Origin: a virus
Reading direction: 5' to 3' (one strand)
DNA: 46,905 nucleotides
Virus record (IMG/VR): IMGVR_UViG_3300034177_000014
Coordinates: 1-46,905 of that record
Below the pieces are notes generated by a model. The model was not told where the DNA came from. It saw only the letters and a program-made list of their open reading frames with translations, and made no database searches. Made by a program: the position numbers and the translations under genes. The number at the start of each line of letters is the position of its first letter. Position 1 is the first letter of the stretch. Below, one piece after another: positions 170 to 41,987 of the stretch.

Positions 170-302
170 TTTTCACCCATTTTCTCCAACTCTTGTTAGA
201 TTTAGTTCTTCTTTCTTGTTATTAGTAGCAATCCCCTATGTGCTATTCGTGCTCCCCGGCGTAAACTTCTACTATGAAATTACTCCAGCAACAGGTGATG
301 CA

Positions 303-4918: not shown

Positions 4919-5709
4919 ACATTATTGATATGTTTCGTGGAACACCGCCTGTTTCTCCATCTGTTCCGGCTCAGAATCTTGGGCCTGATGGAAAGCCGAT
5001 TCAACAACAGCAACTTGGACCAGACGGTAATCCACTAGTTCCAGGAGCTACTAATACTCCGCCACAGGATCAAGATGTGAACAAATCCCCGCTGGCTGAG
5101 TTTGGTAAGTTATGGGATACTGAACCACTCAAAGAAGGGCAACAGCCGAAACCAGACTTAAACGATCCTAATTCGATCGTTCCAAACCTACAAATTGATC
5201 CTAAACGGTTGTCAGACGCAGCAAAGCGGATTGATTTTTCTCGTGTTATCGACCAGGAACTTGCAAAGAAAGCATTAGGTGGTGATGTTGCAGCCTTCTC
5301 GCAAGTTATCAACAGCGTCGCTCAAGCATCGTTCGCAAACATGTCGATGGTTTCATCGCGCATTGTTGAGAACGCATTAAGGCAATTCACTCCTAAGCTT
5401 CTTAATGAATCTTTGCCGCATTCCATTAGGAAGTTTTCAGTTGGTGATGCTTTAGTATCCAGCAACAAGATCTTCAACGATCCTGCTGTTGCACCAATGC
5501 TGGAAATGCTAAAGAGTCAGCTTCAGATCAAATACCCCCAAGCATCAACCAAAGAGATTGGCGAGATTGCAAATCGTTATATGCAATCCCTTGCCAAAGC
5601 CGTTGGTGGTGAAGATAATAATAATCCCAATGACCCCAATCGACGTGGAGCTGTCAAAGAGATGGATTGGATTGACGACTTTCTCGGTGGGGCATCAGCA
5701 CAAAAGTAA
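4915..5709 (+). CDS. capsid assembly scaffold protein (putative)
   Basis: 264 aa. Position between portal and capsid genes, a Pro/Gln/Gly-rich N-terminus with two GPDG repeats (LGPDGKP and LGPDGNP, about residues 22-43), a helical middle, and a polar C-terminal tail ending in an acidic/aromatic patch (MDWIDDFLG) are typical of scaffolds. Such proteins fill the prohead and leave before packaging. The start overlaps the upstream stop (ATGA). Confidence 0.75.
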   Translation: MNIIDMFRGTPPVSPSVPAQNLGPDGKPIQQQQLGPDGNPLVPGATNTPPQDQDVNKSPLAEFGKLWDTEPLKEGQQPKPDLNDPNSIVPNLQIDPKRLSDAAKRIDFSRVIDQELAKKALGGDVAAFSQVINSVAQASFANMSMVSSRIVENALRQFTPKLLNESLPHSIRKFSVGDALVSSNKIFNDPAVAPMLEMLKSQLQIKYPQASTKEIGEIANRYMQSLAKAVGGEDNNNPNDPNRRGAVKEMDWIDDFLGGASAQK

Positions 5710-5750
5710 TTAGGAACAGTAACTTTTAATTTTCCATCTGGAGGTCTTTC

Positions 5751-6440
5751 ATGCTTGCCCGCGGAGTAGTAACTGCTGGTAGCGTAACAGGACGCCAAGC
5801 TGGGCCGGGTGATGTTCTTGCTTCTGGTGAGTCGTATGCAGCTCTTACGACTGCTGGTGCTGGAACAATTCTTGGTTCCATGATTGCAGCGGGCATCCTG
5901 CATCGCACTGGCCCCGGAGCTGGTTATACTGACACTACGGATACTGCGGAAAACATTCTCACTGCACTTGCCGGGAATGACTACAAAGTAAACGTGATGC
6001 CGGGAACAACTTTCCGGTTCCTCTTCAGGAATACAGTTGCGTTCCTGATGACGTTCGCTGCTGGTCTTGGCGTAATTGCTGGAACTGGCACGTTGAACGT
6101 AACAGCGTCTCTCGTGCGTGAGTATCTGTTGGAAGTGTTGAATTCGACTCCAACATTTACCACACTGTGCAGCACTGCTGCTGCAAGTGCTATTGTAACA
6201 CTTCTCACACCCGCCGCGATGGGTTCCATTACTCCTGGGCAAATAGTGTCAGGAACTGGAATTACTGCGGGTTCTCGCGTCTCTGGTGTAACTATCGGAG
6301 ATCAAACGAGTGCTCGCGGTCAAGTGGATAAGATTACGGCAATTACGCTGAATCAAAACTCAGCGTCTGCTCAGTCCTCCACATCCGTCACGTTCTCTCC
6401 ATGCATCCGCTTTAATGGGTTGCGTGAGAGCACGTTGTAA
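5751..6440 (+). CDS. head-associated (decoration-like) protein
   Basis: 229 aa, very rich in Ala, Gly, Thr and Ser, with beta-strand-like repeats (ITPGQIVSGTGITAGSRVSG) and no charged helices. It has a strong ribosome site (CTGGAGG) and more C-ending codons than neighbouring genes, as in the capsid gene, suggesting high expression. Location between scaffold and major capsid fits a capsid-stabilising or decoration protein. Hydrophobic stretches (about 35-50 and 95-115) look like packed strands rather than membrane helices. Function inferred from place and composition. Confidence 0.6.
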   Translation: MLARGVVTAGSVTGRQAGPGDVLASGESYAALTTAGAGTILGSMIAAGILHRTGPGAGYTDTTDTAENILTALAGNDYKVNVMPGTTFRFLFRNTVAFLMTFAAGLGVIAGTGTLNVTASLVREYLLEVLNSTPTFTTLCSTAAASAIVTLLTPAAMGSITPGQIVSGTGITAGSRVSGVTIGDQTSARGQVDKITAITLNQNSASAQSSTSVTFSPCIRFNGLRESTL

Positions 6441-6467
6441 CTGGCCAACTAAAAAGGAGTCACTCAC

Positions 6468-7691
6468 ATGACTACGGGTATCTTCAACACTGGCCAGTTT
6501 ACGCAGGATCTAGCACGGAAATCATTCGCAGGAATGATTACTCGACTGATGCCTAACGGTTCAGCTCCGTTGTTCGGTCTTACGTCGATGCTTGAGAGTG
6601 AAACTGCGGTGAACGTAGAACATGGTTTCTTCACAAAAACCATGCTCTTCCCGCAATTAACTCTCAGTGCAGCGGGCCAAACCATTGACGACACGACTTT
6701 CACTGTGACCAGCACAGCAAACATCCTTCCTGGGATGATCTTGCGTGTTGACTCCACTGGTGAGAACGTAATCATCAATGGAATTCTCAGCACCACACAG
6801 GTTAACGTAACTCGTGGTGTTGGCACGGTTGCTGCGGCAGCAATCGCTGGAAGTATCAACCTCTACCAAGTCGGTAATGCGTTCGAGGAATCTTCGACTC
6901 GGCCAAACGCTCTCCAAATCAATCCTGTTCGTGTAACCAATCTTACGCAGATTTTCCGGAACACTTGGGCGATCAGCGGAAGTTCGGCTGCTGTGCAGAT
7001 GATTGCTGGAGATAGTAACGTCGCAGAAAATAAGCAAGACTGCGCCGGTTTCCATGCGGCTGATATCGAGAAAGCTCTCTTCTTCGGACAAAAGTTCCAG
7101 GGTTCCCGCAACGGACAACCGTTTCGTACAATGGATGGAATCTACTCAATTGTGAGCAACCTTGCTTACTACCCGAGTAGCTACTCCAGCGTTAACGTGA
7201 CGGTGGCCGGTGGAACTACGAACTATACGCAGTTTGAAGCTGCTTTCGATCCGTGCTTTAATCAGACAACGGATCCGAAGGTTGCTAACGAGCGGCTGTT
7301 GTTCGTTGGTGGAACCGCGAAGAAAGTCATCAACAATATTGGACGGTTGAATGGCACCTACATGATGGTCGATGGTCAGACTTCGTGGGGGTTGCAATTC
7401 TCTACCGTTAAGATCGCACGGGGAACTTTCCGCGTGATCGAACATCCGCTGTTTAACACCAACGCGTCTTGGAGCAAACTCGCAATTGCTGTGGACTTGT
7501 CCAGCTTCCGGCTGGCATATCTTGGCAATCGCAAAACACAGCATAAAGCATTTAATGCTGCTGGCGAGGAAGCACAAGATAACGGAATTGATGCTGTCGG
7601 TGGAACACTCACAACTGAAGTCACCGATCTCATCAAGAATCCTCCAGCTTTCGGGATCATGACAAGCCTGACTGCTGCGGCTGCTGGTTAA
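6468..7691 (+). CDS. major capsid protein
   Basis: 407 aa, the usual size for an HK97-fold shell protein. It lies after the scaffold with the strong ribosome site AAAAAGGAG, shows codon use suggesting high expression, and is followed by a strong terminator. The N-terminus (MTTGIFNTGQFTQDLARKSF) resembles capsid proteins of podovirus-type phages in which a helical arm precedes the shell domain. Residues about 60-125 form a beta-rich insertion (TFTVTSTANILPGMILRV) that could be a surface domain. The family assignment is by context and overall resemblance. Confidence 0.85.
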   Translation: MTTGIFNTGQFTQDLARKSFAGMITRLMPNGSAPLFGLTSMLESETAVNVEHGFFTKTMLFPQLTLSAAGQTIDDTTFTVTSTANILPGMILRVDSTGENVIINGILSTTQVNVTRGVGTVAAAAIAGSINLYQVGNAFEESSTRPNALQINPVRVTNLTQIFRNTWAISGSSAAVQMIAGDSNVAENKQDCAGFHAADIEKALFFGQKFQGSRNGQPFRTMDGIYSIVSNLAYYPSSYSSVNVTVAGGTTNYTQFEAAFDPCFNQTTDPKVANERLLFVGGTAKKVINNIGRLNGTYMMVDGQTSWGLQFSTVKIARGTFRVIEHPLFNTNASWSKLAIAVDLSSFRLAYLGNRKTQHKAFNAAGEEAQDNGIDAVGGTLTTEVTDLIKNPPAFGIMTSLTAAAAG

Positions 7692-19083: not shown

Positions 19084-20690
19084 TGGCTGTAGAGAACATT
19101 GTTAGCCTTGACAAGATTATCTCTGAGTTTGCTAACGTTGGCGCAGCTCAAGCTGCTCAAGGAAAGAAGCTAGATGCAGATGAGGCTGCATTGAATCAAT
19201 CTGTTGGAAAGGAAGAGGACGCTATTCGCCGCGAAGCGGAACTCACAGGGCAAGTGCAAGGTCTTGTTGATGAGCTTGGAATACGTCGTGCTGGAAGGAA
19301 TGCTGATGCAGCTGCTTCCTTTGGAACAAATCCTGACGCTTCTACTTATATCATTAATGAACTTGCCAAAACATCTGTAGAAAATGACAAAAGACTAAGA
19401 GCTTCGGCCATAGATTTGCAGCAAAAAATGTCTGTTGGCCCTGGTGATGATATCCTCGAATGGATTGCAAATCAATTTATACTTCCTTCTCAAGCGCAGG
19501 CACACAATGCTCTCGCTGTTGAGCAGGAGATTGTCACTGGCGCAATTAGCAGACTTCAGCAGCAAACACAAGAGCAAGTTAAGATCAACAATGCAATTAC
19601 TGCGAATACATCTCAAGCTATTATTAAGGCAAATTCCGAACGTCTCCTTGCAGCTGCTGCTGTCAAAGCTGCAAATGCACAACAAGAAGCCCTTAAGGTT
19701 AATATGACTGTTGGTAGCGTTAGACTTGCAACAACACAGCAAGCATTTACCAACAGTCTTGCTCTTGTTCGTGCTCAAGTTGATCTTCAGCAACTCCAAA
19801 TTCAACGTGATAGGAATAAGCTGGATAAGGAGCTTAAGCAAGAACGCCTTGAAGCTCTTCGCCGCGCGGAGAAAAGTGACCTCGAACTACAAGTAGATCT
19901 TAATCGTGCAACACAACTTCATGGAATGCGTCAAATTACTCCAGAACAATTCCGTCGTATGTCAGGGCCGATGAAGCAGGTTCTTGAGTATGCAATGTCT
20001 GATCCTTCAATGCTTAGTGGCAGACTTGGACCAAATCCTGCTGTTGCAGTTGAAATGGCCGTTACAATCAATTCACCTCTCACTCCTGCAACACAGGATG
20101 TTAAGGGAAAACTCATTGATATGATGGTAACTGCTCAATCACGTCCAGATTGGTCAGCTCTCAAACCTGAACAAAAGCAAAATGCGCATTTAAAAGCAAT
20201 AAATGAGCGTCTGGCTCTTGAAATGCGCAATATTCCTGATTCCGGCAGCATCTTCTCAGCTCCTCCGATGCAAAGTGTTGGAAAGATTCCAAGAGTGGAA
20301 GCTACTGTGCTATGGAAGGAGTATCTTGCTCCCCTTGCTAAGAATCCGACCGCTCCAATGTCTGCAAATCAACTTTTTACTGGTGCTCTCGATACTGTAG
20401 CTGCTGGAAAGATGCCAATCGAACAAGCTGCTCTTGAGATTTCAGAAATCTACAAAGCTATCGTTGCTGATAACTGGCACAATAAGGATTATGGACGCTT
20501 TGCTGTCCAAGTTCCCGAACAATATCGTCATTCTTACAATACTCGTATTCCTGGGCCGTTCCGCTTTGGGACGGAGCAGCCGCTTGATATGACAAATGCA
20601 ACAGCTGTTAAGAATCGTATGCTTCGTCATCTTAATGCACAAAAAATGAGTGATGAAGCTGAAACACTTTCCTCTCAAATGCTCCCCTGA
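19083..20690 (+). CDS. internal virion/ejection protein 2 (535 aa)
   Basis: ATG overlaps the previous stop (TAATG). About residues 100-290 form a long coiled-coil region rich in Gln, Ala and Leu (QEIVTGAISRLQQQTQEQVK to RDRNKLDKELKQERLEALRR). The C-terminal third is mixed helical (PEQYRHSYNTRIPGPFRFG). Its size and place between the 662- and 1723-aa proteins match the middle member of the T7-type internal core. No enzymatic motif seen. Probably part of the periplasm-spanning DNA conduit. Confidence 0.65.
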   Translation: MAVENIVSLDKIISEFANVGAAQAAQGKKLDADEAALNQSVGKEEDAIRREAELTGQVQGLVDELGIRRAGRNADAAASFGTNPDASTYIINELAKTSVENDKRLRASAIDLQQKMSVGPGDDILEWIANQFILPSQAQAHNALAVEQEIVTGAISRLQQQTQEQVKINNAITANTSQAIIKANSERLLAAAAVKAANAQQEALKVNMTVGSVRLATTQQAFTNSLALVRAQVDLQQLQIQRDRNKLDKELKQERLEALRRAEKSDLELQVDLNRATQLHGMRQITPEQFRRMSGPMKQVLEYAMSDPSMLSGRLGPNPAVAVEMAVTINSPLTPATQDVKGKLIDMMVTAQSRPDWSALKPEQKQNAHLKAINERLALEMRNIPDSGSIFSAPPMQSVGKIPRVEATVLWKEYLAPLAKNPTAPMSANQLFTGALDTVAAGKMPIEQAALEISEIYKAIVADNWHNKDYGRFAVQVPEQYRHSYNTRIPGPFRFGTEQPLDMTNATAVKNRMLRHLNAQKMSDEAETLSSQMLP

Positions 20691-23600
20691 TGGAACATAC
20701 TGATCTACACATTGCTGCGGATAACCATGAGGTAGCTCTCAGCGGTCGTAGTATGTTCGATTCTGTTGCTGACTTTCTCAATAAAGGTGTTCCACTCACT
20801 GGTCTCAGCATCTACAACAGTTTCGTAAATACTGCTGTTGATGTTGGCAACTTCTTTGGCGGCGATTTCGAACGTAATAATCCCATTGAACAACTTCAAA
20901 ACTATGACGACGATTTGCTCTCCTATTATAAAGAGCACGATGAAGGCATTGAAGCAGCTGGCTTAGTTGTTGGCAGCTTCATTCCAGGTCTTGCAGCTAT
21001 TAAGGCTTTGCAACTCGCTTCTCGTGGAAAGCAAGGTCTAAACACAGCAATGGCTACAGGACTTCTCAGCGGTAAGAAGCAAGCCGTTATTCGTGATGCT
21101 ATTTCTGAAATTAATGCTGGAGAAGCCTCTCTTTTCGGCAATATTAACGCCTCTAAACTCAAAGCTATTGCTTACGGCTTCGGGGATCAAGCTCTCCAAG
21201 CTGCTGCTTGGGAGACAGCAACGATAGCAACAATGAAAGCAAATCCTCTTCTCGATAAGGATGGATTTGAAGATATTATGTCACATATGTTTTGGGGAAC
21301 ACTCGTCGGAGGTGGTGTTGGAGGCGTTATCGAAGGTATTGCTATTCGTTCTACCATCAATAATGCGCTGCGCGATATAGACGCGAAGGAGAAAGTCTTC
21401 GATTTAGCAAAGAGTCTTGGACTCGGTAACTTCAATGCTGGTGATCGGGTTGTTGCACTCATCAACAGTATTGACGAGATGCCAATTCCTGCTACTGCTA
21501 GTGAGAAGGTTAAAGCCATCAGAACAAAATCACACGCTGAGATAGAAGCTTGGAAAACTCTTAAAACTATTAGCCCGGAGGCTGATGAGAACCTTGGAAA
21601 AGCTTTCATCGACTCCCTCTATCATATGCGGCATGAAGCACAGCTTACGAAGGAAGAAATGTATGACTATCTTGCCCGTCTTGCAAGAATTAGCCGTGCC
21701 GACTCAGAATCTTATCTTAAAGGAGATGACGTATTCTATGTGAATCGTTTCGCTAAAAAGGAAGATGTTGACTTTGGCGATCTCATTATTCAGCCTTCGA
21801 AGGCTAGAACTGCTGAAGAAGCAGCTCATTTCCTGGAGATGCAGAAGAAAGCAGCTTCTTCCTATGCTTACACCATGGTTCCTGGAGCTACCAATATTCG
21901 TGTCTCTCGTTTTGATGATGTAATAACCAGTGCCGACAAGCAATCTGTGCAGAAGTATACCAGCAAGACTGAAGCTTTCGAAGCTGGTGAAGACTTCTTC
22001 ATTGATTCGCAGCTTAATGTCAGTGTCAACCAAAATTCAGTGAATGTGAAGCGAGTTCCTCGTCCTGGTGAAGGTAGAATTCTTAGTGCTGCGGAAGAGA
22101 AAACATTCCGCAGCACTGGAAACCTTCCTGCTGGAGCTAAACCGCTCTATGGTGCTCCTCTTTTCTTCAATGTTCTTACTGGACATGTAACTGATCGTGC
22201 ATATGCTGTTATTGGTGATATTGCTCCAATTAAAAGTATCAAAGATCTCCTTACTTACGACTCTCGCGGCAACATTACTGGTATTTCCTTGAGCACCGAA
22301 GCTGGTAAGAAATATTCCAGCACTCATTATGTTGAATCTGGTTTTAACTACCATGATGATTCTGCTCTCGACGCAAATGCTCGCTATGTTTGGGCATTTG
22401 CTCGTGGACTCAAGAAGGATGATATCATCAACTATAATGATATTCCAATGCTGGAGCAAGTTATTCGCACAGGAAATGCAGATGGCATGGACAAAGTACG
22501 GGAACTCAACGTTCGCATGAGGCAACCAAACGGAGATATTAGCAAACTTCCAGATGCTGCTGCTGTTCTTGAGCGGCAGGTGTGGAAGGAGAAGGATGCT
22601 GTTATTGCGGAGCTACTCGGTGATGGCAGCAAACGAGTGGATGCTACTGAAGTTGCTATTAAAGCCAACGTTCCCAAGCAGTACCTAGAAGCTGGAATGC
22701 GTGCTAATAAATGGGAAGAAGTCTCAGTTCCTATTCAAAATTCACTTAAAGTTAACACTATCCGCCTTGAATATGATATTGGCGACCTCAGTGTTCAAGA
22801 AGGAAATATATTGAGAGGAATGGTTGATATGCAGTATCGTGTAGACATGGCAAAACAGCAAGCTCTTAATGCTGTTACCAACTACTATAAAGCAGAAGCT
22901 CCTCGTATGGTTGCCAGAGGAACCGCTAAAGAATCCAGTATCCTAGGAGCTGGGCCAGGTGCATTTACTGCATCTAGCGCTGATTACGGAACGCTTGCAC
23001 AACAGATGGAATCTCTTGGCAATGCGCTTAGTCAATGGATGCAGGTAAAGAGAAGTTATGTTACTGATCATCTTGCTGGCGCAATTTCTGCCTTCGAAGG
23101 TGATGAGATTGCTAGTGCTGAACTTGCAGTTATTACTAATATCGGACGTAGAGTTTCTCGTCAATTCCAGTTCCTTCCTGAAAATATTGCTGTTCAATAT
23201 ACGAAGCAAGGAGCAACTACAAATACTATGGTTCTCGAAAAATCACTTATTAAAGATCCCGGTGGAGCAATCATTGGATGGAAACCTGACTACGTTCCGA
23301 ATGAAGGAGTTTGGATTAATGGCAGTCGCTTCGGAAAGCTGGATTACAGCGATAAGCCATTCGAAGGTGCTTTCACCTACTATAACCTGAATCCAAAAGT
23401 TGCTAATTTCCTTCGTGCAGGAACTGAACTTAATGATGAGCGGCTTGTTCACCACAATACTTGGCTTGCTGCTCAAGGTATTGCTCGTAAATATGATCTT
23501 GGCACTGTATATTTTCCGCCTATTGATACTGCTCGTTATAAATACGTGGCACTCGTTCGTGAAGCAGAAGGAATAGCCTTTGGAACCAGTGATGCTGGTG

Positions 23601-25861
23601 CTCTTGTTTCCGATTCTGCGGAAGGACTCCAAAAGAAGGTTGCTCTTGTTCTTCAAGATAATCCACAAGCTCGTATTTCTTTCAAAGGAACATCGAAGGA
23701 TTATCACGAAGCTCTTGGAGATTATGATTATAGTCTTAATCTCGTTGAATCAGCTGTTGACTCCAATCTTCGGAAGAAAGGTATTCTCAGTGATGTGCTG
23801 CCAAATGTTCGTGGACAGCAGCAACTCAAGGAATATTTCGATTGGCATATACGGCAGGAAGAGCGCCAAAGCAGAAACTTTATGGAGTTAGGCAATGCTC
23901 AATTGTTCGCTGAATTGCGAGCACTTGGGAAGAAGTTTATGGAGCCACAAGAAGCTGTGGGGCCACAAGAGGGAAGATTCTTTAGGCGAGCGGAGAATCC
24001 ATTCCGCCGTTATACCGACCTTGCGCTCAATATTAGTCCGAAACAGGAGTATCGACTGTGGCAAGATTCTCAGGAGAAGGTGGAAGCTTTTGCTGCTACT
24101 GCCTTCCGGCAAGCGAAAGAACTGCTTGGACAAGCAAGTAAAGGACTCATTAGCTATGAGCAAGCAACTGAGTTAACTACGAAGTTTGGTCTTGGCAATC
24201 CGTATCAACGGACTATTGAAAAGCTTGGAGAGCTGAGTGAGAGCGGTGCAACGAAAGGTGCTCTTGAGCGTTTCGCAGAAGCTAATCGCCTTCCTTTAGG
24301 TGTTCCACTTTCTCGCTTTGTCCAGAAGGCGAATTCAATTTTAGCAGCGACTGTAATTCGGCTCGATGTTTTTCAAACCTTGATAAATGTGGTATCAACA
24401 CCAGTTCTTCTAACAGCCGAGTTCGCGTCAGCGAAGAATAATCCAGCCTTACGCCAACTTCTGACAACAACGCTTCCAGGTGCAGGTGATAAAGTAGTTC
24501 CTGCCTACTCGAAAATACTTTTCGAATCAGTGGGAGATTTTTTCGGGCGAGATAAAGAAGCTCTAGTCTCCCGCTATCGTATGCTTGGAACGGTTCGGGA
24601 ACTCTCCTCGGACTATCAAGAAATGCTTTCGAATTTGACGATCGCCGGTTCGACGACAGTAAAAAAGCTAGAAGAAATGGGCGAGAAGGCTGTAAAGCTC
24701 GGAGTGAAAATTTCCCGCGCTGATTGGGCGGAAGAATTCGTTCGATTTGTTGCATCAAGAACGGCTGACAAACTTTTCTCCGCTCTCGGACACTCGGGAC
24801 AAGCTCTCGACGACAATATAAGAACATTTGTAAACCGAGTGCACGGCAATTACTTGGCTGCGCAAAGACCTGTGGCATTTCAGGGGCCAATAGGACAAGC
24901 AGTCGGACTCTTTCAGACATATCAGTTTAACCTCATGCAGCAAACTTTCCGTTATGTTGCGAATCAGGAAAAACTCCCACTTGCAATGTTATACGGCATT
25001 CAGGGTACCTTATTCGGTATGCAAGGGATTCCCGGCTTCCATGCTTTGAACACTCATATCGTAGGTAATGCGTCGAATAATCCTGAGCATAAGGATTTCT
25101 ATTCACAAGTGCCAGCACTGTTTGACAAGAAGCTTGGGGATTGGATGTTATATGGCTCACTATCAAGCGTTCTCTCGACTGGGTTGTATTCTCGCGGTGA
25201 TATAAATCCACGCCAAATATCCATCCTTCCAGTGAATCCGTTAAACTTTCCAGCAATTTCGGCTGGAATACGTTTTGTTGGTAATCTCTGGGATTTAGGT
25301 ACCAGAATGAAAGACGGTGCTCGTTTTTCTGATGCACTACTACAAGGATTAGAGCATAATGCTTTATCGCGTCCTCTGACTGGTATTGCTCAGATGGTAC
25401 AAGGGTATACGACCACATCGAAAGGTTCCTTAATTAGTGCATCAAATGATTGGGATTCTATAGCGACAGCTTCACGCATCCTTGGAGCAAGACCTCTTGA
25501 TGAAGCAGTCGCATTAGACGCTCTCTATCGAAAGACCGCATACCAAGCGAAAGATACTGCGCGGATACAGCAATTAGGTGAGGCTGTAAAAACAACACTG
25601 ATCGCTCAGCAGACTCCAACAGTGGAAGAGCTACAATCGTTTGCTGGCCGATATGCAGCTTCGGGTGGTAGAGTTGAGCATTTTGGTAGGAAGATGATTG
25701 AATGGACGCGCGACGCCAATCAGTCAACCGCCAATGATATTTATCGCTCACTTCGGTCTCCTTTAAATCAAAATATGATGAGAGTTATGGGAGGTGAAAG
25801 ACTCCCAGATTTTTCTACTTCCCTTCCGGCTTCGGTGACTGCGACTTCGCCAATTCAATAG
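20690..25861 (+). CDS. giant internal virion/ejection protein 3 (1723 aa)
   Basis: The longest gene, ATG overlapping the previous stop (TGATGG). It corresponds by place and size to the T7 gp16-type conduit protein. Near the N-terminus are two glycine-rich hydrophobic segments (LVVGSFIPGLAAIKALQLA near 92, and GTLVGGGVGGVIEGIAI near 205) that could insert into membrane. The rest is helical with many charged stretches. I see no transglycosylase or other lytic catalytic signature, unlike gp16. The last 47 nt overlap the convergent gene on the other strand. Confidence 0.65.
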   Translation: MEHTDLHIAADNHEVALSGRSMFDSVADFLNKGVPLTGLSIYNSFVNTAVDVGNFFGGDFERNNPIEQLQNYDDDLLSYYKEHDEGIEAAGLVVGSFIPGLAAIKALQLASRGKQGLNTAMATGLLSGKKQAVIRDAISEINAGEASLFGNINASKLKAIAYGFGDQALQAAAWETATIATMKANPLLDKDGFEDIMSHMFWGTLVGGGVGGVIEGIAIRSTINNALRDIDAKEKVFDLAKSLGLGNFNAGDRVVALINSIDEMPIPATASEKVKAIRTKSHAEIEAWKTLKTISPEADENLGKAFIDSLYHMRHEAQLTKEEMYDYLARLARISRADSESYLKGDDVFYVNRFAKKEDVDFGDLIIQPSKARTAEEAAHFLEMQKKAASSYAYTMVPGATNIRVSRFDDVITSADKQSVQKYTSKTEAFEAGEDFFIDSQLNVSVNQNSVNVKRVPRPGEGRILSAAEEKTFRSTGNLPAGAKPLYGAPLFFNVLTGHVTDRAYAVIGDIAPIKSIKDLLTYDSRGNITGISLSTEAGKKYSSTHYVESGFNYHDDSALDANARYVWAFARGLKKDDIINYNDIPMLEQVIRTGNADGMDKVRELNVRMRQPNGDISKLPDAAAVLERQVWKEKDAVIAELLGDGSKRVDATEVAIKANVPKQYLEAGMRANKWEEVSVPIQNSLKVNTIRLEYDIGDLSVQEGNILRGMVDMQYRVDMAKQQALNAVTNYYKAEAPRMVARGTAKESSILGAGPGAFTASSADYGTLAQQMESLGNALSQWMQVKRSYVTDHLAGAISAFEGDEIASAELAVITNIGRRVSRQFQFLPENIAVQYTKQGATTNTMVLEKSLIKDPGGAIIGWKPDYVPNEGVWINGSRFGKLDYSDKPFEGAFTYYNLNPKVANFLRAGTELNDERLVHHNTWLAAQGIARKYDLGTVYFPPIDTARYKYVALVREAEGIAFGTSDAGALVSDSAEGLQKKVALVLQDNPQARISFKGTSKDYHEALGDYDYSLNLVESAVDSNLRKKGILSDVLPNVRGQQQLKEYFDWHIRQEERQSRNFMELGNAQLFAELRALGKKFMEPQEAVGPQEGRFFRRAENPFRRYTDLALNISPKQEYRLWQDSQEKVEAFAATAFRQAKELLGQASKGLISYEQATELTTKFGLGNPYQRTIEKLGELSESGATKGALERFAEANRLPLGVPLSRFVQKANSILAATVIRLDVFQTLINVVSTPVLLTAEFASAKNNPALRQLLTTTLPGAGDKVVPAYSKILFESVGDFFGRDKEALVSRYRMLGTVRELSSDYQEMLSNLTIAGSTTVKKLEEMGEKAVKLGVKISRADWAEEFVRFVASRTADKLFSALGHSGQALDDNIRTFVNRVHGNYLAAQRPVAFQGPIGQAVGLFQTYQFNLMQQTFRYVANQEKLPLAMLYGIQGTLFGMQGIPGFHALNTHIVGNASNNPEHKDFYSQVPALFDKKLGDWMLYGSLSSVLSTGLYSRGDINPRQISILPVNPLNFPAISAGIRFVGNLWDLGTRMKDGARFSDALLQGLEHNALSRPLTGIAQMVQGYTTTSKGSLISASNDWDSIATASRILGARPLDEAVALDALYRKTAYQAKDTARIQQLGEAVKTTLIAQQTPTVEELQSFAGRYAASGGRVEHFGRKMIEWTRDANQSTANDIYRSLRSPLNQNMMRVMGGERLPDFSTSLPASVTATSPIQ

Positions 25862-37685: not shown

Positions 37686-38021
37686 TTAGTGCCAGTTCTT
37701 GTCGAAACAATGCTTTGTTTCGTGGCCAAGAATGAATAATTCAATAGTAAGATCAGGCACTTTTGCGAATCTTGGATCTTTTTTACGCATCTCAGGGTAT
37801 TCACTCTTTTTCGGAACATAGATTGTGCATACATCACCAGTAGGAAAGTATGCACAACCAACGTTGCTGTGTTCTTTTCCATAAGGAGAACGATAGCATA
37901 CCTTGTTTATTTCTTCCAGCGAAACTTCATGCTTTACTATTGTCGTAGTCTGCATAGTGGAGCAGCTAGCTAGTAACAATAGTAACACAGGTAGACTACT
38001 CAGCTTTAACTTCTGGTTCAT
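37686..38021 (-). CDS. lipoprotein with an HExxH motif
   Basis: 111 aa from ATG 38021 (AGGAG 9 nt upstream; a GTG three bases earlier is an alternative). Lipobox LLLLLASC (C20), with Ser at +2, which favours outer-membrane sorting in Gram-negatives. Cys42, 56, 65 and 105 may pair. The C-terminus reads ELFILGHETKHCFDKNWH: H100-E101-x-x-H104 is a zincin-like metal motif, with His111 as a possible third ligand. A small phage surface lipoprotein with protease-like residues; activity is unproven. Starts inside the upstream gene. Confidence 0.75.
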   Translation of the reverse strand: MNQKLKLSSLPVLLLLLASCSTMQTTTIVKHEVSLEEINKVCYRSPYGKEHSNVGCAYFPTGDVCTIYVPKKSEYPEMRKKDPRFAKVPDLTIELFILGHETKHCFDKNWH

Positions 38022-38715
38022 CACTATCTACTCCTATATCTAAGAGTTTCGCTTCTTTCGTTTCTTCTTCTTTCCCTTCCCACGGGAGACCCCACTTTGC
38101 TGCACAGATTGGGCCGTAACCATGATAAAGAGAAATCTTGTTTGTAAGTTCCAGTCCGCAAAAGCAACAGTGCGAAAACTCAATACCTGAGAGTTTCGCA
38201 GTTTCGACCGGATTAGCTGCAATCTTGCGGATAATAGTTTTAATCTCGGATCGAAGAACCTTTGCAATCTGTCCTTCTCCTTTAAGATTAATGCTACCAT
38301 AGAGAGACCGTTCAGGCCAGTGCTTTCCGTTGGTAATAAGAATGAAGCCAGGCGTTTTGCTGAGACTGCTGGCACGATAAAAATGGATGTTGATTCTTGA
38401 ATCTTCTGGGAGTTTAATCTTAAGAGCCGGGAACTTGAGATTCGAGGAAGCTTTGATAAATAAATCTCGCAGCTTTGTTCCATCGAATACTTCTTCGACT
38501 CGCTTCTCTTCCCTGTTTCCTGCTGCATCACATCTAGCCAGTAATCTATCAATCCAATAGACTTGCTTTTCACTGAGATACCCATGAGTTTCGAAGTATT
38601 GGATAAGACTGTGAGCGAAGGCTTCATTGCCGTCTCCAATCAACTCTTTCTTTGCTTTCAGTTCTGCTACTCGATCATCAAGTCTCTTTGTCATGGAGGA
38701 ATAGTCCGTAGTCAC
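37996..38715 (-). CDS. DUF6011-like zinc-ribbon protein
   Basis: 239 aa from a GTG at 38715; ATG 38694 (MTKRL) is also possible, and neither has a clear ribosome site. N-terminal helical part with YFETHGYLSEKQVYWIDRLL, a middle beta domain (INIHFYRASSLSKTPGFIL), and a C-terminal zinc element CCFCGLELTNKISLYHGYGP followed by C204 and KWGLPW, the pattern of DUF6011. Found in many phages and plasmids, probably nucleic-acid-binding. Overlaps both neighbours. Confidence 0.75.
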   Translation of the reverse strand: MTTDYSSMTKRLDDRVAELKAKKELIGDGNEAFAHSLIQYFETHGYLSEKQVYWIDRLLARCDAAGNREEKRVEEVFDGTKLRDLFIKASSNLKFPALKIKLPEDSRINIHFYRASSLSKTPGFILITNGKHWPERSLYGSINLKGEGQIAKVLRSEIKTIIRKIAANPVETAKLSGIEFSHCCFCGLELTNKISLYHGYGPICAAKWGLPWEGKEEETKEAKLLDIGVDSDEPEVKAE

Positions 38716-39170: not shown

Positions 39171-39362
39171 TTATATCCGCTCGCTGTTCTCGTTGATAGG
39201 AAGAGGAAGATGTGGATTGTCAGGGAATATATTAATTTCGAAAGTAGTAATCTCTCCACTGACAGGATTTTTAGAATCAATCCATATCTTCCGGACGTGT
39301 GGGTTCCTGAAATCTTCTTTTGTTTCGACGTTAATTACATGATGCAGAAATAGTGTGCTCAT
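39171..39362 (-). CDS. small protein coupled to the helicase
   Basis: 63 aa; its ATG shares the A of the helicase stop (TAATG). Beta-rich sequence (TLFLHHVINVETKEDFRNPH; SGEITTFEINIFPDN). No motif known to me. Probably translated with the helicase from one transcript. Confidence 0.6.
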   Translation of the reverse strand: MSTLFLHHVINVETKEDFRNPHVRKIWIDSKNPVSGEITTFEINIFPDNPHLPLPINENSERI

Positions 39363-41737
39363 TAGCTTTGCTCCTCTTCATCTTCTTGCTTCACAAGATT
39401 AAGCTTGCTGTCCTCAAGTATCTTCCTGAGTGCAGCAGGCAGCTTACCCAGATCGTGATACTTACTGGCCACTGGGTTACGGCCAAAATGCTTCATCACT
39501 TCTGTCCAGCGTCCACCATGTCCTCGTTCTTTATAGACTTGGAACGCAACATGATGAGCAACTTCATGCGGGATTGTATCTGCTATCATATCGTTGGGAT
39601 CGAGATGCAGATATACCGGGCTACAAGTTATCTCATTGGTTCCATAGTTAGCAATACCAGCAGCAGAACCTTTAATCTTCCAGCCAAAGGTAGGAGCTGC
39701 TATAGTTGCAAGCTGTGGATACCACTTAGTTGCTACCTTCCACCAATGAAGAACGCAATCTCTTGCGAGAGCATCCCATTCAGGAACAAGATTAAATGCA
39801 ATTGTGATTGGATCATCAACAGGTTGCTGCTTACGTTTCTCAAGCAGTAACCTCTCCCTCTCTTCCAACTTCCCTTTAAACCATTCAGCTTTCTCAGCAA
39901 GTGTGTTACCTTTAATCTTTTGCGACGTTACACCACGCTCGAAGGTGTTAGGTTCACATATGATATGCAGATACTTCTTTGCTCTTGTAACAGCGGTATA
40001 CAGCAGCTCACGCTGATTCATTGTTGCGTGGCTGTTATGGAGAACGATGAATACTTTGTCCCATTCGGAACCTTGTGCTTTATGGATTGTGATGCAGTAT
40101 CCACCAAGCAGCTTATTAACTTCAGCAGCGGTATCAATAGTTACTTCTTCGCCAGTAGCAGCAATAACAAGATCAATCATGTGGGAAGCAGCAGTAACAC
40201 GATCCTCTGCTTCAGATGCTGCGAGTTCCAAATACTTATCTATAGCTTCAACATCAAACTCTTTACCTTCATCGGCTTCATGTTCAACCTTGGTAGTTGC
40301 ATCTGCATCCATATCTTCAGTCCGTAAATGTCCCCATCTGTCCAGATACTCGGAGGGGGATTGGCAACTTTTGCCCATGTATTCAGCGTTTCTACTAATT
40401 TTAGTGATGACAGCATCTTCCTTCTCATAAAGAACTCTGTCACCTTCGGCAAGATAGTGCTTATTGTAACCAGCCACCACTTCGTGGACAGTTGCTTTGC
40501 GCTTTCTGCCAAGATGTTGTGAGATTCCTTTGTTAATCTCCACAGTTCCAAACGAGACGTTGAACGGGCAGAGGATGATATCGTCGTTGAAATTGTAATA
40601 TCCACTGTCAGCCCATTCACAGAACTGTTTGGTAAGTGTGATGAGACCATGATCTGCACTAAGTTGTTTCTGCCAAGGTTGGAAGATAACCTTTCCATCT
40701 TCATTCTCCAAGCTAAGCGCATCCAGTGAAGGGATGATCTTGCGATCAACTTCCTTCTTTAGTATTGGATGGAGCAGCTTAACTGATTTAGATTTGCTGT
40801 TGAACAGCTTGGGATCACCAGCTAGAATCTTCCAAGCTAGTGAAATGATTGGGGAGTTAAGAGCTTGACGATATACTTCCGTAAGCTCAATTACTGGAAG
40901 TTCCAGCATCTTAAAGCCAAGAATTGCACTTCCAAATACTGGTGGAAGTTGCTGAATATCTCCAAGATAGATGAGTTGTGGCTTATGGGGACAAGCATCT
41001 AGCAGCATATCATGAAGTTCAACACTTACCATGCTGCTTTCTTCGAAGATGATAAGCTTGAGGCCAGAAGGTAATGGATTATATTTGCTGCGCTGTGGTT
41101 CAAAGCGCATTGTTTTCTTCATTTCTCCCGGCTTCTCAGGATTCTCTACCTCATACCAGACTGGAGCAAATTCCAGTAGCTTATGGATGGTAAGAGCGTG
41201 AGATTTGATTGCCTCTGGAAGAGCGTGACGAATGTTATTCACAGCTTTATTAGTAAAGCTACAAACTGCGATACCATGCTTTCCAGCATGTAACCACTTG
41301 GTGCCTTGAGATAACAGCTTGATACGGCCATCTGTTATCAACTTCTTTCCTAACCAACGCTGGCAAGTAGTCTTGCCTGTTCCAGCAGCTCCGATGAGAA
41401 CAATGTCCTCACCTTTAGCTCCGCGATCAGCAAAGTTCTGCTGTTTATCATTGAGGATAATATCATCACGAGCTACACCTAGCACCTTGTGCGGATGCTT
41501 GGGAGTTTCTGCTTCGGCGCTTGGTTTATCTGCGTAGGCTGATACCAACTCAGCAACAGCATCAGCAGCTTCAGGATGCTGCACATTAATACCAGCACTA
41601 GCAAAGTCTACCTCCACGCCATCAACTTTTGCTTGCTGAATTGTATCAATAGCAGCAACAGCAGTTGGCGAAGATGCTAACTTCTTGCGTGCTTCAGCAA
41701 GTAGCTGCTGGACTCGCTCTTCAGTTATTCGTCTCAT
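39362..41737 (-). CDS. RecD-like SF1 helicase fused to a SprT-like metalloprotease
   Basis: 791 aa from ATG 41737 (AGAGG 6 nt upstream; ATG 41788 would overlap the previous gene further). Helicase: Walker A GAAGTGKTT (116-124), LIIFEESSM (228-236), YLGDIQQLPPV (257-267), TEVYRQ (286-291), UvrD_C-type ITIHKAQGSEWD (549-560) and LLYTAVTRAKKYL (578-590). After a charged linker (618-645) a second domain carries HEVAHH (H724, E725, H728) and a third likely ligand H740 in HGGRW, then FGRNPVASKYHDL, as in SprT/Spartan proteases. Suggests coupled unwinding and removal of DNA-bound protein. Confidence 0.88.
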   Translation of the reverse strand: MRRITEERVQQLLAEARKKLASSPTAVAAIDTIQQAKVDGVEVDFASAGINVQHPEAADAVAELVSAYADKPSAEAETPKHPHKVLGVARDDIILNDKQQNFADRGAKGEDIVLIGAAGTGKTTCQRWLGKKLITDGRIKLLSQGTKWLHAGKHGIAVCSFTNKAVNNIRHALPEAIKSHALTIHKLLEFAPVWYEVENPEKPGEMKKTMRFEPQRSKYNPLPSGLKLIIFEESSMVSVELHDMLLDACPHKPQLIYLGDIQQLPPVFGSAILGFKMLELPVIELTEVYRQALNSPIISLAWKILAGDPKLFNSKSKSVKLLHPILKKEVDRKIIPSLDALSLENEDGKVIFQPWQKQLSADHGLITLTKQFCEWADSGYYNFNDDIILCPFNVSFGTVEINKGISQHLGRKRKATVHEVVAGYNKHYLAEGDRVLYEKEDAVITKISRNAEYMGKSCQSPSEYLDRWGHLRTEDMDADATTKVEHEADEGKEFDVEAIDKYLELAASEAEDRVTAASHMIDLVIAATGEEVTIDTAAEVNKLLGGYCITIHKAQGSEWDKVFIVLHNSHATMNQRELLYTAVTRAKKYLHIICEPNTFERGVTSQKIKGNTLAEKAEWFKGKLEERERLLLEKRKQQPVDDPITIAFNLVPEWDALARDCVLHWWKVATKWYPQLATIAAPTFGWKIKGSAAGIANYGTNEITCSPVYLHLDPNDMIADTIPHEVAHHVAFQVYKERGHGGRWTEVMKHFGRNPVASKYHDLGKLPAALRKILEDSKLNLVKQEDEEEQS

Positions 41738-41987
41738 TATGAACCTCTTCAACAATAGGATATGCAGCAAGTGTTTTCTTGGATGCATTACGAAACTCGG
41801 GTAAACCTGTTTTAGCTTTTTTAATAGCAGCAGAAGCTGAAAGAGCTTCTAAGGATGTAATAAATACTAAGTTAGCTTTGTATTCCTTCATTTGTTTTAG
41901 TGTTCCATCTAGCGTTACTACTTGAAGCATTTTCCCAGTTTCAATGGGAGGAAGCTGTTGATATACCTTAAATGTAAGAAGTTTCAT
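41721..41987 (-). CDS. small protein of unknown function
   Basis: 88 aa. Beta start (MKLLTFKVYQQLPPIETGKM), a Lys-rich centre and helical end with ASAAIKKAKTGLPEF. Its last 17 nt overlap the helicase start. The ribosome site AGGAGCTACAT supports the start. No family recognised; it sits in the helicase transcript. Confidence 0.6.
   Translation of the reverse strand: MKLLTFKVYQQLPPIETGKMLQVVTLDGTLKQMKEYKANLVFITSLEALSASAAIKKAKTGLPEFRNASKKTLAAYPIVEEVHNETNN

Follow-up and report, generated by a model that had tools for sequence, protein, structure and literature searches.

A tailed phage of ~47 kb encodes, within a single polypeptide, a complete SF1B helicase and a SprT-like metalloprotease domain whose predicted metal site is intact and conserved. 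The gene lies in a virus contig that was analysed over its whole length of 46,905 bases (hereafter the window). We put at roughly 0.58 the probability that its product is an accessory helicase with a C-terminal protease, in which the motor would meet a protein fixed on phage DNA and the tethered protease would cut it.

Domain architecture of the fusion protein

The first-pass annotation had read a 791-aa open reading frame at 39362-41737, and its coordinates are confirmed, on the minus strand (Table 1). An alternative in-frame ATG at 41788 would give a product of 808 aa (+17 aa); the start at 41737 is favoured because in L005, a viral contig with a 91% identical protein, no ATG precedes the corresponding position. 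The N-terminal extension is the fastest evolving main segment (dN/dS 0.20 vs 0.05 for the helicase). Its amphipathic motif (LLAEARKKLA; IEVARQKLAELRARKGR; residues 5-22 of the fusion, 41672-41725) is present at the N-terminus of some members of the family, and a similar motif occurs at the C-termini of L117, L116, L006 and L119; this terminal motif is perhaps a docking peptide.

Table 1. Features of the fusion gene (minus strand of the window) and the stand-alone SprT-like gene of phage Tiera (L025)
Feature	Residues	Coordinates	Strand	Evidence
Helicase-SprT fusion gene, 791 aa		39362..41737	-	ORF at these coordinates; start equivalent in L005
Variable N-terminal extension with short amphipathic helix LLAEARKKLA	1-92	41462..41737	-	pLDDT ~40-70; dN/dS 0.20
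SF1B helicase core, Dda/RecD2-like	93-622	39872..41461	-	Pfam AAA_19 and UvrD_C_2; phrog_325; Foldseek RecD2 3GP8
Walker A GAAGTGKTT	116-124	41366..41392	-	G116, A118, G119, G121, K122 invariant in 40 relatives
Helicase motif EES	232-234		-	Sequence
Motif III GDIQQLPPV	259-267	40937..40963	-	G259, D260, Q263, P266 invariant
Motif V TIHKAQGSEW	550-559	40061..40090	-	H552, K553, Q555, G556 invariant
Motif VI LLYTAVTRAKK	578-588	39974..40006	-	Y580, T581, R585, A586 invariant
Connecting helix	613-637	39827..39901	-	Helix in AlphaFold2 model; most unfused relatives stop near here
Predicted SprT-like zinc metalloprotease domain without Cys-rich zinc-binding subdomain	~646-770	39428..39802	-	PF10263; fold; dN/dS 0.065
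HEVAH: two predicted zinc-binding His and catalytic Glu	724-728	39554..39568	-	H724, E725, H728 invariant in fused homologues; aligns with Spartan HExxH
HGGRW: third predicted zinc-binding His and W744	740-744	39506..39520	-	H740, W744 invariant; aligns with Spartan GHG segment
Tiera_053, stand-alone SprT-like protein, annotated hypothetical protein		L025:42972-43391		26.8 bits, just above cut-off

The motor carries the complete set of SF1 motifs, the invariance of whose residues was judged across 40 relatives. Pfam domains AAA_19 (E 6e-19) and UvrD_C_2 (E 1e-17) were matched, and a comparison with PHROGs returned phrog_325, the Dda-like helicase (4e-62). An AlphaFold2 model of the full protein, built on 40 relatives, reached a mean pLDDT of 82.9 and a pTM of 0.65; the predicted helicase part found RecD2 (3GP8, E 1e-21) as its best Foldseek match, and also the RecD subunit of RecBCD and T4 Dda. 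The RecD2 equivalog TIGR01448 was missed (178 bits vs a cut-off of 500). Hence, of the original description as a complete RecD-like SF1 helicase, the completeness of the motor stands, but the label is better given as Dda/RecD2-like SF1B. By this kinship, the motor would be expected to translocate 5'->3'.

Most unfused relatives terminate after TLAEKAEWFKGK, and in the fusion the join between the two domains is modelled less confidently (pLDDT ~65 at residues 631-650). Given that SPRTN cleaves itself (PMC9240642, PMC7826251), a segment of this kind could be where the protease cuts the fusion; alternatively, its target could be a partner protein of the phage within the replication complex. Either cut might, for instance, release or inactivate the helicase. 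A conserved cleavage site is not evident, and unfused helicases manage without the protease; we regard such self-processing or regulation as the least probable of the readings weighed here.

Within the C-terminal part, the Pfam SprT-like family PF10263 matched residues 684-753 (E 4.6e-13; 49.4 bits vs a cut-off of 25.6), a sequence match far beyond chance. A profile of the domain also found human Spartan (E 1.4e-4), with the HExxH and GHG segments in register. When the fused domains were compared, 15 of the 142 gap-free columns were invariant, H724, E725, H728, H740 and W744 among them, and the alignment suggests that the three His ligands cluster with E725. The zinc-site pattern of SprT/Spartan proteases noticed in the first-pass annotation is therefore supported by both the family match and the invariant residues, and the numbering it gave to the four metal-site positions is correct. 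Modelled alone, the C-terminal part had a pLDDT of 82.4. Its Foldseek matches were the metallopeptidase zymogens jannalysin and abylysin together with human Spartan 6MDX (probability 0.99, E 0.04, 24% identity); the E-values for the domain are weak (0.02-0.04) and the TM-scores to Spartan modest (0.42-0.46), and the models support a predicted fold that resembles Spartan.

The Cys-rich zinc-binding subdomain described for SPRTN (PMC9240642) was not found: the fused domains hold 0-4 Cys, with none after HEVAH in the window's protein. Its absence would suit a SprT domain that has lost its cleavage activity and acts as an accessory module for binding DNA or protein, and there is a parallel in ArdC, whose antirestriction role does not need protease activity or its site (PMC7213743). 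On the other hand, fused SprT domains from different clades share only ~21-38% identity and the complete metal site is still invariant, so we consider loss of cleavage highly improbable.

Recurrence and history of the fusion

Scans of IMG/VR by short peptide patterns, which make the counts lower bounds, detected the same architecture in at least eight other viral contigs, representing ~6 further distinct proteins with 36-91% identity to the window's protein (L005, 91%; L112, 66%; L113, L114 and L115, 48%; L042 and L128, 39%; L016, 36%). Both domains were confirmed by Pfam in five of five fused homologues tested, each reaching the PF10263 cut-off. Between the window and L005, dN/dS was 0.054 for the helicase and 0.065 for the SprT domain; both are under purifying selection. 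An assembly artefact or a chance open reading frame is thus ruled out, since the architecture recurs in independent contigs and is constrained, and the proposal of a helicase and a SprT domain in one protein proves to be real.

Outside these contigs, no fusion was detected. None of 50,697 phage records and none of 72,556 plasmids aligned over 80% of the protein, and a scan of GTDB species found no helicase-SprT fusion in cellular genomes; in 192 genomes sampled from one phylum, the seven SprT matches all fell in frames of 185-256 aa. The first-pass annotation knew of no described phage enzyme of this design. Likewise, the open-licence papers searched report no helicase-SprT fusion, describing only SprT proteins that phages encode separately and relatives of the ArdC type (an earlier mention elsewhere is possible).

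Seven of 97 distinct helicases are fused, and they sit in three separate places on the helicase tree. For the helicase part, the AU test rejected the grouping of all fused proteins into a single clade (p 9e-9), which rules out simple descent of the fusion as one clade there; even the two nearer fused groups do not form one clade (p 0.005, for a grouping chosen after the tree was seen). For the SprT domains alone, one origin was not rejected (AU p 0.81, with few columns and low power), and these parts may form one clade. The rejection argues that the protease domain has been repeatedly added, lost or swapped in this helicase family. Such gain, loss or exchange would also account for the discordant identities of L114, whose helicase is closer to that of the window (59%) than to that of L016 (48%), whereas its SprT domain is closer to that of L016 (38%) than to that of the window (27%).

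The SprT domain is missing from most relatives of this helicase, and most near-complete relatives lack any SprT gene; taken as a whole, the family can therefore do without the protease. We also considered mutual compensation, in which unfused relatives would carry a separate SprT gene. This was mostly absent: besides the fused records, Polaromonas phage Tiera alone exceeded the cut-off among the relatives searched. Two weak matches below the cut-off (G017 and G041), in reading frames of ~1800 aa, were set aside.

Patchy occurrence, with recurrent gain or loss of the domain between closely related members, is what might be expected of a part in an arms race. The protease, brought along by the helicase, could reach and destroy host defence proteins that sit on phage DNA (RecBCD-like nucleases, restriction complexes or sensors). 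Consistent with this reading, the SprT domain has changed more quickly than the motor (51% vs 75% identity between L005 and L112), the SprT-like proteases of jumbo phages have been read as targeting host proteins from their limited distribution and variability (PMC7824862), and an ArdC-SprT fusion is present in another phage (L260, below). By contrast, no defence target is known, antirestriction by ArdC proceeds without its protease site (PMC7213743), and a replication-type helicase partner fits general clearing equally well. Counter-defence is the main rival to general protein clearing; the two readings overlap, and either would account for the patchy distribution. We consider counter-defence rather unlikely.

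Genome context and proposed function

The fusion gene adjoins replication and recombination genes (DNA polymerase, primase, a Sak4-like annealing protein and an exonuclease) in a record that also encodes terminase, portal and major head proteins, as well as MazG-like and dNMP kinase proteins. The named relatives are phages of Pseudomonas, Aeromonas and Polaromonas. In Tiera, whose gene order is similar, the separate SprT gene and the helicase gene share a strand and lie ~2.5 kb apart; among 76 loci with stand-alone SprT genes, a helicase of this family was strongly matched nearby in Tiera only, with three weak matches elsewhere. A PADLOC search for known defence-system families returned helicase-type matches only.

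Two further proteins of the record were noted in passing. A neighbour of the fusion (37996-38715, minus strand) encodes a 239-aa protein with a C-terminal DUF6011 zinc-finger-like domain (phrog_4046), and a 1723-aa protein lies among the virion genes (20690-25861, plus strand), the C-terminal part of which matches only phrog_16165.

In the protein-clearing reading that we favour, the motor would travel 5'->3' along DNA until it encountered a protein fixed on the phage genome, and the helicase would stall at the obstruction or loosen or unfold it; the tethered SprT protease would then cut it, so that replication or recombination could pass. Proteins ahead of forks are cleared by SF1 accessory helicases (PMC6158625), and in the nearest precedent, vertebrate repair, FANCJ, a helicase that moves 5'->3', unfolds adducted proteins, probably ahead of cutting by SPRTN (PMC10175854). 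Coupling between motor and protease belongs to this model, as do proteolysis itself and the substrate, which could be covalent crosslinks, tightly bound proteins or defence proteins. That the fusion might clear crosslinks, host defence proteins or obstacles to packaging, as first suggested, can reasonably be inferred; nothing in this analysis points to the packaging role. More tentatively, and at somewhat less than even odds, the protein might be a single-chain "unfold and cut" machine that does the job of FANCJ and SPRTN in one enzyme and has been put together repeatedly within a single family of phage helicases.

Should the protease be active, the fusion would be a compact enzyme, amenable to expression, with a physical link between unfolding by the helicase and Spartan-type proteolysis, so that their coupling could be tested directly. 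It would also give a concrete site of action to SprT domains of prokaryotic systems, about whose role the literature found says little, and show how phages handle proteins that block their DNA.

Comparison with known systems

The C-terminal domain shares with human SPRTN/Spartan (PDB 6MDX/6MDW) the HExxH motif, a third His in a GHG context and a predicted metalloprotease fold, and DNA-bound protein is the expected target of both. Unlike SPRTN, the phage protein has a helicase fused in cis on the N-terminal side, has no Pfam domains corresponding to the PCNA, VCP and ubiquitin modules, and lacks the Cys-rich subdomain, which contributes to DNA binding in human Spartan. The motor is as complete as those of T4 Dda and RecD2-type SF1B helicases, and its direct homologues are found in Pseudomonas phage PaP2, Aeromonas phage P5 and Tiera; by contrast, the Dda/RecD2-type relatives examined stop after the helicase core or bear unrelated short tails, none with a protease.

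Stand-alone phage SprT proteins, as in KVP40-type Vibrio phages, phAPEC8, mycobacteriophages (PMC12363180) and Tiera, belong to the same Pfam family or have been described as SprT-like, but they are small separate proteins without a motor (127-298 aa for most frames in viral contigs). ArdC likewise combines a DNA-binding module with a zincin metalloprotease of Spartan-like structure, yet it has no motor and holds its metal by His-His-Glu instead of three His. In a separate observation, the L260 protein (IMGVR_UViG_3300036940_000176, 4936-6486, plus strand) joins an ArdC N-terminal domain, an MPTase-PolyVal zincin and a SprT-like domain, that is, two predicted metalloproteases in one probably DNA-binding protein. 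The functional parallel is with vertebrate FANCJ and SPRTN, in which a helicase unfolds and a protease cuts DNA-crosslinked protein; there the work is divided between two eukaryotic proteins, whereas the phage carries both domains in one polypeptide.
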